This document shows, in pieces, positions 5,465 through 41,657 of a DNA stretch of 41,657 bases (its first letter is position 1; every line of letters starts with the position of its first letter). The notes under the pieces are model-generated. The model saw nothing but the letters and a program-made list of their open reading frames with translations, was not told the origin of the DNA and searched no databases. This DNA comes from a virus: positions 1 through 41,657 of IMG/VR virus record IMGVR_UViG_3300032053_000169; one strand, written 5' to 3'. Both the position numbers and the translations under genes were made by a program.

Positions 5465-5711
5465 CGGCTCAGTTTTATATCGCATCAAGCAAGCAATAAG
5501 ATTAATCATAAAGGGAAGGACAGCGCGGGAACAACGGCAGGGGGATGCGTTACTCCACCTGATGACCCAAATGACTGACTACATGACACCAATTCAAATG
5601 ATGAAGCTCATCAACGAGATGCAAAAGTACCAAAACCCAAACCAAAAGGTTGATATGACAGGCGTTGTATCTATAAGCGAATTCAAATCAAGGATTAAAA
5701 AGAATGTCTGA
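5433..5711 (+). CDS. Hypothetical protein upstream of the ParB-methyltransferase gene
   Basis: This 92-aa protein starts at ATG 5433, with GGAGAAG at 5420-5426 in good position; an ATG at 5427 in the same frame sits right against the Shine-Dalgarno and is less likely. It has a basic N-terminal part (YRIKQAIRLIIKGRTAREQR) and a helical Met/Gln-rich middle (YMTPIQMMKLINEMQKYQ). No family recognised. It overlaps the next gene by eight bases, so the two are likely translated together and it may act in the same DNA-modification or packaging step. Confidence 0.6.
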   Translation: MILLSAPQHTNGSVLYRIKQAIRLIIKGRTAREQRQGDALLHLMTQMTDYMTPIQMMKLINEMQKYQNPNQKVDMTGVVSISEFKSRIKKNV

Positions 5712-6945
5712 TATGCCAGAGGTAGAGATTGAGTACCGTGACATTGATACCCTAATACCATACGCCCGCAATCCACGCAAAAACGATCACGTTGTTGATA
5801 AGTTTGCATCAATGATTCACGAGTTTGGCTTCCGCATACCCATCAACGTCAAGAAGGATGGCACGATTGTCGATGGTCACCTTCGTTACAAGGCAGCCAA
5901 GAAGCTCGGTTTGAAAATGTTACCCGTTACCTACGTTGACGATATGGGCGAGGGAAAGCTTAAAGCCTTCCGCATCGCCATCAACAAATCGGCAGAGTTG
6001 GCTGATTGGGAAAACGAATTGCTCGATGCCGAGTTTGATGAGTTATTGGAAATGGGCATCGACCTCGATATAACGGGGTTCGACTTTGACGAGCGTAAAG
6101 CGATCAAGATCGAAGGCATAGCCGATGGCTTAACCGATGAGGACTACGTGCCAGAGGTACGCCCCGACCCCATCAGCAAGGAGGGCGATACGTGGCTCTT
6201 GGGCAACCACCGCCTTATGTGTGGGGACAGTACCAATCAGGAAGCCGTGGAAGCCCTGTGTGCGGGCGTGAAGGTCGACCTTTTCCTAACCGACCCACCC
6301 TACAACGTCAATTACGAGGGCAAATCCAAAAACCGCGACAAGATTATGAACGACCACATGGATAACGATACCTTCAGGCAATTCCTGCGGGATGCCTTTA
6401 TCACTGCCGACACTGTTATGAAGGCAGGGGGTGTGTTTTATATCTGGCATGGGGATGGCGAAGGGTACAACTTCCGAGGCGCGTGTAAAGATGTCGGGTG
6501 GACAGTACGCCAATGCTTAATCTGGAACAAAGACAGCATGGTATTGGGTCGACAAGACTATCACTGGAAGCACGAGCCATGTTTGTACGGATGGAAGGAT
6601 GGCGCAGGACACTTATGGGCAAGTGACCGCAAGCAAGTAACCATCATGGATTTCAAACGCCCCGCGAGAAGTGATATCCACCCCACAATGAAGCCAGTGG
6701 AGTTGTTTGAATACCAAATGCTCAACAACACCAAGGGCAGTGATATCGTATTAGATTTGTTCGGTGGGTCAGGCACAACCATAATCGCAGCCGAAAAGAA
6801 TGGTCGTCACGGCTATTTGATGGAGCTAGACCCTAAGTTCTGTGACGTTATCGTAAGACGATGGCAGGAGTACACTGGCAAGGAAGCCACGCTCGAATCA
6901 ACGGGTGAAACATTCGCACAACTCGACAAGGATAAAGCAGCATGA
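5704..6945 (+). CDS. ParB/Srx-domain DNA methyltransferase fusion
   Basis: This 413-aa protein joins an N-terminal ParB-like nuclease domain (about residues 8-100; ARNPRKND, then IVDGHLRYKAAKKLG) to a C-terminal N6-adenine/N4-cytosine methyltransferase. The catalytic DPPY is at residues 197-200, before the AdoMet-binding segment LDLFGGSGTT near residue 355, the order typical of beta-class enzymes. It would methylate phage DNA, most simply for protection from host restriction. It directly precedes and overlaps the small terminase gene (ATGA), a common placement for these fusions. Target sequence cannot be read from the protein. No partner endonuclease is adjacent, so it is an orphan enzyme. 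Confidence 0.9.
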   Translation: MSDMPEVEIEYRDIDTLIPYARNPRKNDHVVDKFASMIHEFGFRIPINVKKDGTIVDGHLRYKAAKKLGLKMLPVTYVDDMGEGKLKAFRIAINKSAELADWENELLDAEFDELLEMGIDLDITGFDFDERKAIKIEGIADGLTDEDYVPEVRPDPISKEGDTWLLGNHRLMCGDSTNQEAVEALCAGVKVDLFLTDPPYNVNYEGKSKNRDKIMNDHMDNDTFRQFLRDAFITADTVMKAGGVFYIWHGDGEGYNFRGACKDVGWTVRQCLIWNKDSMVLGRQDYHWKHEPCLYGWKDGAGHLWASDRKQVTIMDFKRPARSDIHPTMKPVELFEYQMLNNTKGSDIVLDLFGGSGTTIIAAEKNGRHGYLMELDPKFCDVIVRRWQEYTGKEATLESTGETFAQLDKDKAA

Positions 6946-34871: not shown

Positions 34872-35057
34872 CTAAACAACCCCAGTTAAAAGTTTGTACG
34901 GCTCGTTATCAATAATCACCACGCGATTATCCTTAAGCCATCGATAGAGTGTAGGAAAAGACACGCCCCACGAATCAGCAAGGCGAAGCTTTGCAGCACC
35001 TTCCGAGATCATATTTACCGAAGCGTAGCTTTGTATGTAGTGATTTAATAATACCAT
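34872..35057 (-). CDS. Small helix-turn-helix regulator (only leftward gene)
   Basis: This 61-aa protein is the only gene on the minus strand. Residues 20-44 (GAAKLRLADSWGVSFPTLYR followed by WLKDN) form a helix-turn-helix, and the end (IDNEPYKLL) resembles the short C-terminal strand of Cro-like proteins. It faces away from a region with 21-bp repeats, as repressor genes do. There is no clear Shine-Dalgarno; TAGAAT lies six bases before its ATG on the minus strand, with TTAGCA 18 bases further back, so a leaderless message is possible. It probably represses the early operon and itself. Confidence 0.7.
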   Translation of the reverse strand: MVLLNHYIQSYASVNMISEGAAKLRLADSWGVSFPTLYRWLKDNRVVIIDNEPYKLLTGVV

Positions 35058-35063
35058 CCGACT

Positions 35064-35093
35064 ATTCTAACAGGCTCTTAGCACAAATGCTAA
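35064..35093 (-). promoter_or_regulatory. Candidate leftward promoter of the HTH gene
   Basis: On the minus strand TTAGCA (35088-35093) and TAGAAT (35064-35069) are spaced 18 bases apart. The -10 lies so close to the ATG at 35057 that transcription would start at or near the start codon. The -35 overlaps an imperfect inverted copy (CTAACTCGG at 35090-35098) of the 21-bp repeat core. Confidence 0.4.
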
Positions 35094-35102
35094 CTCGGAG
35101 TA

Positions 35103-35165
35103 AAACCGAATTAGGATTGTGCGAAACCGAATTCGGTATTTGGTAAACCGAATTAGGACTTTGGG
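35103..35165. repeat. Three 21-bp direct repeats, candidate operators or iterons
   Basis: AAACCGAATTAGGA at 35103 and 35145 and AAACCGAATTCGGT at 35124 start exactly 21 bases apart, two helical turns, so all lie on the same face of DNA. The middle copy contains a perfect 12-bp palindrome, ACCGAATTCGGT (35126-35137). Inverted copies flank the array: CTAACTCGG at 35090-35098 (one mismatch) and CTAATTCGG at 35224-35232. They lie upstream of the divergent HTH gene and the early operon, so they are most likely its operators; an iteron-type origin is the alternative. Confidence 0.8.
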
Positions 35166-35237
35166 ACATTCAGGACTTCACCTAGTCAAGTTATTTCTGT
35201 GTAACCGACCCTGAGATAACTGGCTAATTCGGGGAAC

Positions 35238-35314: not shown

Positions 35315-35345
35315 CCTTTGATAGTACAAAGGTTATAGTTATCAT
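35315..35345 (+). promoter_or_regulatory. Candidate early promoter overlapped by inverted repeat
   Basis: TTGATA (35318-35323) and TATCAT (35340-35345) are spaced by 16 bases. CCTTTG-ATAGTA-CAAAGG (35315-35332) is a perfect 6-6-6 inverted repeat covering the -35 element, so a second regulator could bind here. It would drive the early operon starting at 35430. Another A/T-rich stretch at 35351-35395 could also supply promoter elements. Confidence 0.5.
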
Positions 35346-37419: not shown

Positions 37420-37654
37420 GTTGATCGAGATAATCATGTCCGATGGCGCGGAGTACACGCCCTACGATGTGCGTGAGGCGTTGATAAAGGAGTTCAATCG
37501 TTACCATAGTGATGGCACAGTGTCGCGCTCAATGCGCCACCTGCGGGAACGGGGGTGGGATATGCATTGGCGTTACAAGGGGGAGGGGTCGGCTACGACC
37601 CTTTATAGGATTGAACGGGCGAAGCCCGCAGGATATCAGGAGGCTCTACTCTGA
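37397..37654 (+). CDS. Winged helix-turn-helix-like protein
   Basis: This 85-aa basic protein has LPELIEIIMSDGAEYTPYDV, then YHSDGTVSRSMRHLRERGW and a closing TTLYRIERA. The sequence of helix, recognition-like helix (SDGTVSRSMRHLRERG) and a following beta-hairpin looks like a winged helix, as in small phage regulators encoded just before replication initiators. It may regulate the replication genes. It overlaps the DUF1376 gene by one base (TGATG). Confidence 0.65.
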   Translation: MKRQSLPELIEIIMSDGAEYTPYDVREALIKEFNRYHSDGTVSRSMRHLRERGWDMHWRYKGEGSATTLYRIERAKPAGYQEALL

Positions 37655-38418
37655 TGCATTATTACCAGTTTGCCATTAACGAATACCAAAGCCACACCGC
37701 GCACCTCGACCACGTTGAGGATATCGCGTACAGGCGCATGATGGATTGGGCGTATCTGCACGAACGCCCGCTGCCAATTGACCCCGAAGAGATATGCCGT
37801 TTAATTCGTATGCGAACGCAATGCGATAGCATAAGAATTGTGCTGCGTGAGTTCTGGGTGCTGCATGAAGATGGTTATCACAACCATCGAGTTGATGAGG
37901 AGTTGTCGCGGTATAGAGCCAAAAGTGACAAGGCAACCACCTCGGCAAACACCAGATGGGGCAGTAAAAACAAAGCCTTAGCCAAACGATGCGAACGCAT
38001 AGCGAAGGCAAAGCCAACGCATAGCGAAGGCAATGCTAATAATAAATCATTAATCATTAATAAAACTATAGAGATACCGTTTGATAAGTTCTGGTCTTTA
38101 TACCCAAGGAAGTCTGCCAAGGCAGCAGCAAATAAAGTGTGGAGCAAACTTTGCAATAATGATAAGATAGATGCCTTAGATAAGTTACCGAGGCATATTG
38201 CCAAATGGACAGACCCGCAGTTTATACCTCATGCCACAACGTGGTTAAACCAAAAGCGGTGGGAGGATGTGTTAGAGGTTAATGTTGTAACGGCAGCAGC
38301 GCATAAAACTTATGAGCCGAAAGTGGAGACCGAAGAAGAGAAGAAGGAAAACGCACGAAGGGCAACGGAGCAGCTTGCGAAATATCAAGCGATGTTAAAT
38401 AAACCTAAAACGGAGTGA
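37654..38418 (+). CDS. DUF1376 replication initiator-like protein
   Basis: This 254-aa protein starts MHYYQFAINEYQSHTAHLDH and continues with VEDIAYRRMMDWAYLHERPL, the DUF1376 domain of phage replication (O-like) proteins. A linker (about residues 105-140) is followed by a C-terminal region (EIPFDKFWSLYPRKSAKAAA, then HATTWLNQKRWEDV) that resembles the helicase-loader-interacting domain of such initiators. The linker DNA carries direct repeats and an A/T-rich block that look like an origin, as in lambda O. It likely binds the origin and recruits the host helicase, since no phage helicase gene is visible. Confidence 0.85.
   Translation: MHYYQFAINEYQSHTAHLDHVEDIAYRRMMDWAYLHERPLPIDPEEICRLIRMRTQCDSIRIVLREFWVLHEDGYHNHRVDEELSRYRAKSDKATTSANTRWGSKNKALAKRCERIAKAKPTHSEGNANNKSLIINKTIEIPFDKFWSLYPRKSAKAAANKVWSKLCNNDKIDALDKLPRHIAKWTDPQFIPHATTWLNQKRWEDVLEVNVVTAAAHKTYEPKVETEEEKKENARRATEQLAKYQAMLNKPKTE
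37989..38073 (+). other. Candidate replication origin inside the DUF1376 gene
   Basis: Two 18-bp identical direct repeats, AACGCATAGCGAAGGCAA, lie at 37994-38011 and 38016-38033 (22-bp period). A palindrome ATGCG-AA-CGCAT (37989-38000) overlaps the first. Immediately after comes an A/T-rich block (38034-38073) with tandem ATCATTA (38046-38059). Iterons followed by an A/T-rich melting region in the linker of the initiator gene is the lambda ori plan. Confidence 0.65.
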
Positions 38419-41267: not shown

Positions 41268-41563
41268 GTGCGAGAGAATCGTTTGAAAAGTGGATAACCG
41301 TATTTTATAACAATGAAGTGCCTAGAAAATTAGATGATGGAGTTTATATTGATAATGATATACGCACACGATGGATAGCATGGCAAGCATCACGCGCACA
41401 GGCTATTGATGAGTGCTTACAATTACATGAGTCGATTAAAGTAACGCCTCTACATGAGTCGATTAAAATAACGCCTCCAGATAATGATGATTGGATTGAC
41501 GCCATTATTGACAGTCGTGAGGCATATCAACAAGCAATCAAACAGCTAAAGGAGCAACCATGA
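41264..41563 (+). CDS. Small early protein with ALDEC-like motif and internal repeat
   Basis: This 99-aa protein starts behind AAAGGAGCAACC in an ATGA overlap. It has ESFEKWITVF near the start, SRAQAIDECLQ in the middle, an internal 9-residue duplication (LHESIKVTP then LHESIKITP) and the end AIKQLKEQP. It is a paralogue of the 129 gene by layout and shared motifs. The duplication is exact at the DNA level except for one base, so it is recent. Function unknown. Confidence 0.72.
   Translation: MSARESFEKWITVFYNNEVPRKLDDGVYIDNDIRTRWIAWQASRAQAIDECLQLHESIKVTPLHESIKITPPDNDDWIDAIIDSREAYQQAIKQLKEQP
41424..41477 (+). repeat. 27-bp tandem duplication inside the 41264 gene
   Basis: Positions 41424-41450 and 41451-41477 are 27-bp units beginning TACATGAGTCGATTAAA and differing at a single base (G/A). 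The period is a multiple of three, so the reading frame is kept, adding nine residues. Confidence 0.9.
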
Positions 41564-41657
41564 GTGATGCGATTATTGATATAAATGGATTGGATAATCT
41601 AACATTGAGAGAGATAGCTGACTTGTATTTTAATTGTAATCATATTGGCTATAGTGA
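41560..41657 (+). CDS. N-terminal part of gene spanning the circle junction
   Basis: This ATG lies behind the AAAGGAGCAACC cassette and overlaps the previous stop as ATGA. The frame MSDAIIDINGLDNLTLREIA runs to the end of the window without a stop and continues at base 14 of the window once the 15-bp overlap is merged, ending at 115. The complete product has 65 aa and no recognised family. The LTLREIADLYF stretch could be the start of a helix-turn-helix, but it is too short to call. Confidence 0.75.
   Translation, partial: MSDAIIDINGLDNLTLREIADLYFNCNHIGYS

Follow-up and report, generated by a model that had tools for sequence, protein, structure and literature searches.

The OR and OL regions of lambda are the familiar case of phage repressor operator arrays. 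Plasmid iterons are direct repeats of a size comparable to a 21-bp period, and in origins of the lambda O type the iterons lie inside the initiator gene.

Among satellites, PICMI elements are described in the available text of PMC10803314 as induced by virulent phages, with the helper switching on alpA; their gene iolg overlaps the integrase gene and is required for excision. How the early (alpA) regulon comes to be activated by the helper is posed there as a question. CapR of PLE satellites represses capsid expression of phage ICP1 (PMC10448857, available portion). Below we describe an array of palindromes in a phage genome and compare it with these systems.

The analysed phage genome

We analysed a whole IMG/VR entry (IMGVR_UViG_3300032053_000169), a phage of ~41.7 kb, whose full 41,657 nucleotides are called the window. 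Bases 1-15 and 41643-41657 of the record are identical (15 bases), so the genome is probably complete, circular or permuted; the record is not classed as having end repeats. The window gave no match to the Phage_integrase or Resolvase domains, as expected from the original prediction of a phage without integrase, and domain search found in it no homologue of R, the protein family described below. Away from the array, a 413-aa gene just before the terminase genes (5704-6945) combines an N-terminal half matching ParB-like nuclease families with a C-terminal half matching DNA methyltransferases, an ORF close to the record end contains two copies of a 27-bp unit that are 96% identical (41424-41477), and a Lar restriction-alleviation match (398-664) adjoins a weak match to an H-NS-like N-terminal domain (631-894, E 0.0003, below cut-off).

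A 21-bp palindrome array

Three copies of AAACCGAATTMGG start at 35103, 35124 and 35145, in steps of 21 + 21 bp, with the common unit AAACCGAATT(A/C)GG(A/T). Each site is palindromic or nearly so. The features of the region are as follows.

34872..35057, - strand: P0001, a 61-aa HTH-like ORF transcribed away from the array
35064..35093, - strand: weak leftward promoter-like site TTAGCA-18-TAGAAT, from a consensus scan
35089..35098, - strand: left degenerate inverted site, reading CCGAGTTAGC, 17 bp from copy 1
35103..35116, + strand: putative operator copy 1, AAACCGAATTAGGA, with core CCGAATTAGG at 35106-35115
35124..35137, + strand: putative operator copy 2, AAACCGAATTCGGT, with the perfect palindrome CCGAATTCGG at 35127-35136
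35145..35158, + strand: putative operator copy 3, AAACCGAATTAGGA, with core CCGAATTAGG at 35148-35157
35223..35232, - strand: right degenerate inverted site, reading CCGAATTAGC
35318..35345, + strand: TTGATA-16-TATCAT, a rightward promoter-like site ahead of the early operon, a consensus match only

The sequence thus bears out the prediction of three copies at 21-bp spacing with inverted copies on either side, with two adjustments. The repeat, called exact, is so in its 13-14 bp cores, to which near-identity is confined, and not over the full 22-bp units, which are 73-86% alike; and while CTAATTCGG (35224-35232) is an exact inverted 9-mer of the array motif, CTAACTCGG (35090-35098) carries one mismatch. 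The left degenerate site (35089-35098) shares bases with the -35-like hexamer of the leftward candidate promoter, and its A-to-G change alters the same position that is altered in arms behind R genes. Five sites with at most one mismatch from CCGARTTMGG lie within 144 bp (35089-35232), compared with a maximum of 2 in 200 shuffles, and when the whole window was shuffled 100 times with dinucleotides preserved, an equally spaced triple of 8-mers or 10-mers never appeared; the sites are clustered beyond chance. We found no close relative of the window that could show conservation, and relatives retrieved through the terminase, the initiator and a late gene had no arrays in the retrieved stretches.

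The small leftward ORF that had been predicted to diverge from the array is present, with a weak HTH call (Pfam HTH_23, 16.9 bits versus a cut-off of 24.6). Its single-sequence model, with helices and a small sheet, is weak (pLDDT 73) and gave nothing significant in a fold search. P0001 was rejected as a relative of R: hhalign gave a probability of 4%, and a number of HTH proteins from other families scored equally well or better; its likeness to the R domain is that of HTH proteins in general. Among 27 other array-bearing records, the search for P0001 relatives returned one insignificant match (E 0.01). The original designation of this protein as the binder was not supported; it remains a candidate.

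The -35 of the leftward promoter candidate sits within a perfect dyad, TTAGCA-CAAA-TGCTAA (35078-35093), and because its -10 ends just 7 bp before the first ATG of P0001, either the leader or the start codon of this gene is uncertain. We regard the promoter calls as weak, since the consensus scan gave 4 promoter-like sites versus 2.2 expected.

An iteron-based origin had been offered as an alternative role for the array. Two further features bear on this.

37654..38418, + strand: DUF1376 / replication-initiator-like gene, outside the array, holding a rival origin candidate
37991..38061, + strand: candidate origin inside the initiator gene, with 11-bp repeats (37991-38034) followed by an A+T-rich stretch

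The initiator-like gene lies 2.5 kb from the array, and in 12 of 29 initiator homologues tandem repeats directly precede the conserved block, versus 6 of 252 control places. Because the initiator gene has iterons of its own, an origin role of the array is unlikely; a candidate origin of the lambda O type lies within that gene instead. The suggestion of maintenance without integration likewise found no support in the part of the window proteins that was scanned, which included no ParA-type gene. Two array-bearing phage records (L087, L099) have a parA-like gene near the pair by eye, which hints at plasmid-like maintenance in those phages.

The same palindrome pair in other phages and in bacterial genomes

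We scanned viral contigs for CCGAATTMGG occurring twice at a start-to-start spacing of 18-24 bp, yielding 60 loci with a spacing of 21 in 51, 20 in 4, 24 in 3 and 23 in 2. After removal of near-copies, 36 of 43 viral loci were at spacing 21. A scan of bacterial genomes at a fixed spacing of 21 yielded 43 loci, mostly from Alpha-, Beta- and Gammaproteobacteria according to their titles. With these loci at hand, we take the 21-bp spacing of the window to be the property of a recurring element. The idea of an operator array with helical phasing was strengthened in this way: the same palindrome and 21-bp spacing recur in unrelated phages and mobile elements, and variant palindromes behind R genes keep the spacing. 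The CCGAATTAGG arms of the window match those of elements L085, L090 and L164, the last titled Achromobacter. A core regulator of the host was rejected because the scan, which took one genome per species from 84,980 species, gave just 43 stretches, and R is present in 31 of these.

The R family and R elements

All-against-all comparison of the genes near the pairs revealed one family present in 36 loci, usually ending no more than ~30 bp from the pair. An integrase-like family was found near the pair in 25 loci, and small AlpA-like genes lie beyond the pair in part of the loci (integrases were named from sequence, and from annotation in L417 and L418). Members of the 36-locus family share an unnamed C-terminal HTH-like domain of ~75 residues, which we call R and which hmmsearch detected in 31 of the 43 loci from bacterial genomes and in 9 of the 60 from viral contigs. 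Comparison of the R domain with Pfam, PHROGs, NCBIfam, PADLOC and PDB sequences gave weak hits only, none an explaining match. A model built from 25 sequences predicts a compact three-helix fold (pLDDT 90), for which the top match in a fold search was the StbA DNA-binding domain, not significant (E 0.93).

The usual gene order in R elements is integrase, R, pair, alpA. An annotated plasmid of Legionella adelaidensis carries an integrase, an FRG-domain gene, R (as a hypothetical protein), AlpA and a RepB-type primase, with CCGAATTCGG just past the R stop and a degenerate second site 21 bp on; a Ruegeria plasmid has a similar gene order, with the pair not clearly seen. Integrase, AlpA and RepB-type primase are annotated together in L417, AlpA was recognised by Pfam in L157, and L172 has a Toprim primase. 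Tandem R genes occur in L085, L090 and L191, where the pair follows the second R gene only, and those of L085 adjoin an XRE repressor-like gene. Many R-element leaders, including those of L140, L169 and L353, have by eye an inverted repeat (CACCTCGT...ACGAGGTG) between the pair and alpA, which would pair with the ribosome-binding site.

We also searched genomes by R protein alone, with matches in 5 of 369, 4 of 385, 10 of 268, 2 of 298 and 20 of 377 genomes, some genomes recurring between searches. From these we assembled 39 R genes, setting aside the pattern-scan loci L185, L187, L195, L201 and L346, adding the plasmid loci L417 and L418, leaving out L419 (R under the domain cut-off) and including the first genes of tandem pairs. 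Variant pairs were required to score at least 16 of 20 and to lie no more than 75 bp after the R stop, with spacings of 20-22 allowed. A pair was found just after the R stop in 17 of the 39 R genes, compared with 1 of 259 control places, and at this score was absent after the other 22. The arms behind R genes vary (CCGAATTCGG, CCTAATTAGG, CGCAATTGCG, CTCAATTGAG, CCGTATACGG and CCGATTTCGG) and the spacing stays at 20-22. Because variant pairs follow R stops at this rate, we treat the pair as an operator class. The departing arm often has AGTT rather than AATT, in the second arm in L190, L191, L193, L196, L180 and L349 and in the first arm in L351.

Across 40 distinct pairs, mostly from the pattern scan, a -10-like hexamer lies 27 bp past the centre of site 2 (A at position 2 in 30/40, T at position 6 in 23/40), with no -35 seen; given this hexamer, the pair appears to belong to a regulated promoter that serves the next gene. 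Covariation between the residue before a conserved Thr and the third arm base was suggestive (CCA arms go with E/Q, and most CCG arms of one subfamily with D), and was set aside because the cases were few and related.

Phages that carry the pair

Within the 46 records searched, window included and many of them fragments, the R domain was found in 2. In the genomes of one podovirus group, the pair directly follows the upstream gene and is closely succeeded by the TTGACA of the promoter of the major capsid gene. We chose capsid relatives regardless of the pair (best 80 of 257), of which 76 had enough upstream sequence, and found the exact pair upstream of the capsid gene in 11 of these 76. Among 53 relatives with a recognisable capsid promoter, 15 had, immediately upstream of it, a perfect 10-bp dyad with a spacing of 20-22, which in 11 was the exact pair; of 159 control places within the capsid gene or behind it, 0 had such a dyad. 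Other arms occupy the same place at the same spacing in L271, L281 and L282; L238 may have a plain terminator there, and a podovirus relative, L249, has by eye a classical intrinsic terminator at the position of the pair. Mapped onto the capsid tree, presence of the pair takes 10 changes, not fewer than with shuffled labels.

A phage-encoded reader in the podoviruses was sought by gene comparison (5 pair-bearing, 3 variant and 16 pair-less genomes) and rejected: no gene was present in 5/5 pair-bearing and 0/16 pair-less genomes, and the best rows resemble spurious overlapping frames. A packaging (pac/cos) site had been suggested by loci in which a terminase-like gene directly follows the gene whose 3' end holds the pair; we rejected this reading because relatives in one podovirus group freely have or lack the pair.

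Interpretation of the array

On balance we favour, with moderate confidence, the reading of the array as a transcriptional operator region at the junction of late and early modules, belonging to the R-type operator class. This class consists of near-palindromic 10-mer pairs, mostly CCnAATTnGG, 20-21 bp apart, whose usual reader would be R, encoded beside the pair in integrase-carrying elements. Because the same 10-bp paired signals, 21 bp apart, adjoin R in satellite-like elements integrated in many bacteria, the array is probably a genuine switch that a protein binds. One HTH dimer would occupy each palindrome. With steps of two helix turns (21 bp), all dimers would sit on the same side of the helix and could bind cooperatively, and control by the array would extend to the leftward HTH gene, to rightward early transcription, or to both. 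Either its own 61-aa HTH protein or the R of a resident element, acting in trans, could be the reader in this phage. The window has arms of the CCnAATTnGG kind (CCGAATTAGG, CCGAATTCGG, CCGAATTAGG) at spacing 21. It shares with most array-bearing phages the lack of an R gene ending just before the pair, and neither of its strands has a -10-like hexamer at offset 27 beyond the centre of the last site (counted by hand). Several observations count against the operator reading: the window has no R homologue, 22 of the 39 R genes show no pair at the set score, no close relative was found in which conservation could be seen, the promoter candidates of the window lack the geometry of R elements, and an optional, scattered pair among podovirus relatives is odd for an essential switch.

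The array could instead be private to this phage, with the 61-aa HTH protein as its sole reader, autoregulating and repressing early transcription in the manner of Cro or of a small repressor, an account that we consider possible if somewhat doubtful. P0001 and the array are adjacent and divergent, the leftward promoter candidate overlaps the degenerate site and the dyad, and the weak P0001 model has helices and a small sheet, all of which fit. The likeness to R operators would then be convergence, and the recurrence of palindrome and spacing a chance event of ~1 in 1000 by our estimate (4^5 choices for a 10-bp palindrome); P0001 is moreover without a relative in other array phages, and unrelated HTH proteins match the R domain as well as or better than it does. 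In a further account, the array would be bound in trans by the R of a resident satellite or prophage, which would either detect the incoming phage by titration or alter its transcription. We are rather doubtful of this account as well, although nearly all array phages tested are without R, the pair lies at the alpA control region in the elements, the podovirus pair lies at a capsid promoter and is gained and lost among relatives, and no phage gene tracks it cleanly between the 5 pair-bearing and 16 pair-less genomes. An R element and an R-less array phage were never found together in one cell, phages could easily lose sites that serve a parasite alone, and the geometry of the window is unlike that of the elements.

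A role at the RNA level, with the paired palindromes forming a hairpin for termination, processing or translation, appears quite unlikely. Pairs can fold, several arm changes preserve G-U pairing, the pair comes close behind the R stop codon, and the L249 terminator occupies the same place; a hairpin, on the other hand, accounts poorly for a spacing of strictly 21 bp and for kept direct repeats that break the pairing (CCGAATTAGG twice, CCGATTTCGG twice in L354). No U-tract was seen by eye, and a scan of the window region gave two terminator-like sites versus 1.6 expected. That the copies are iterons of a replication origin is very improbable. Direct repeats of 21 bp do resemble plasmid iterons, and some array-bearing phages have a parA-like gene near the pair by eye; against this stand the 11-bp repeats and A+T-rich stretch already inside the initiator gene, the enrichment of such repeats in initiator homologues (12/29 versus 6/252), and the many pairs elsewhere that lie at gene ends or promoters.

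Returning to the operator class, the array may be an address common to satellites and phages. As a tentative and rather unlikely extension, we propose a shared operator code in which R, encoded between integrase and alpA, binds the pairs at its own alpA promoter and one matching phage array. Phage sites of this code would be at capsid or terminase genes, or, here, at the late/early boundary; phage arrays would titrate R and so switch on alpA, or would be throttled by R; and arms would diversify in both partners with the 21-bp geometry fixed. An operator that occurs both at alpA control regions and in R-less phages offers a concrete DNA site and protein for tests of helper sensing. It makes the array of the window a member of a recurring operator class. 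R in trans is a more interesting candidate reader than the 61-aa HTH protein.

Comparison with described systems

The array resembles lambda OR/OL in its near-palindromic, evenly spaced sites between divergent units, with an HTH gene beside them. It differs in its spacing of two full turns (21 bp) and in having three copies in direct orientation, of which two are asymmetric in the same way. At the array the window has one HTH ORF and one overlapping weak promoter-like site; unlike in lambda, no CI/Cro pair was recognised and there is no integrase. The likeness of this phage to lambda O-type origins lies in the repeats at 37991-38034, and so concerns another place in the window than the array.

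R elements, likened to PICMI and PICI by their gene content, share with them the order integrase, extra gene, alpA and often primase, and R occupies the position of the PICMI gene iolg/icg, given as of unknown function in the available portions of PMC10803314 and PMC11773190. The R family, the palindrome pair and the presence of the pair in phages do not appear in those portions of the two accounts. The parallels with PICMI and with CapR would motivate the shared-code reading, as analogies and not as tests of it. R, a domain of no named family found, is compared with CapR by role only. In the available text of PMC10448857, CapR is a satellite DNA-binding protein acting on phage capsid transcription, and R could act likewise at the podovirus promoters.
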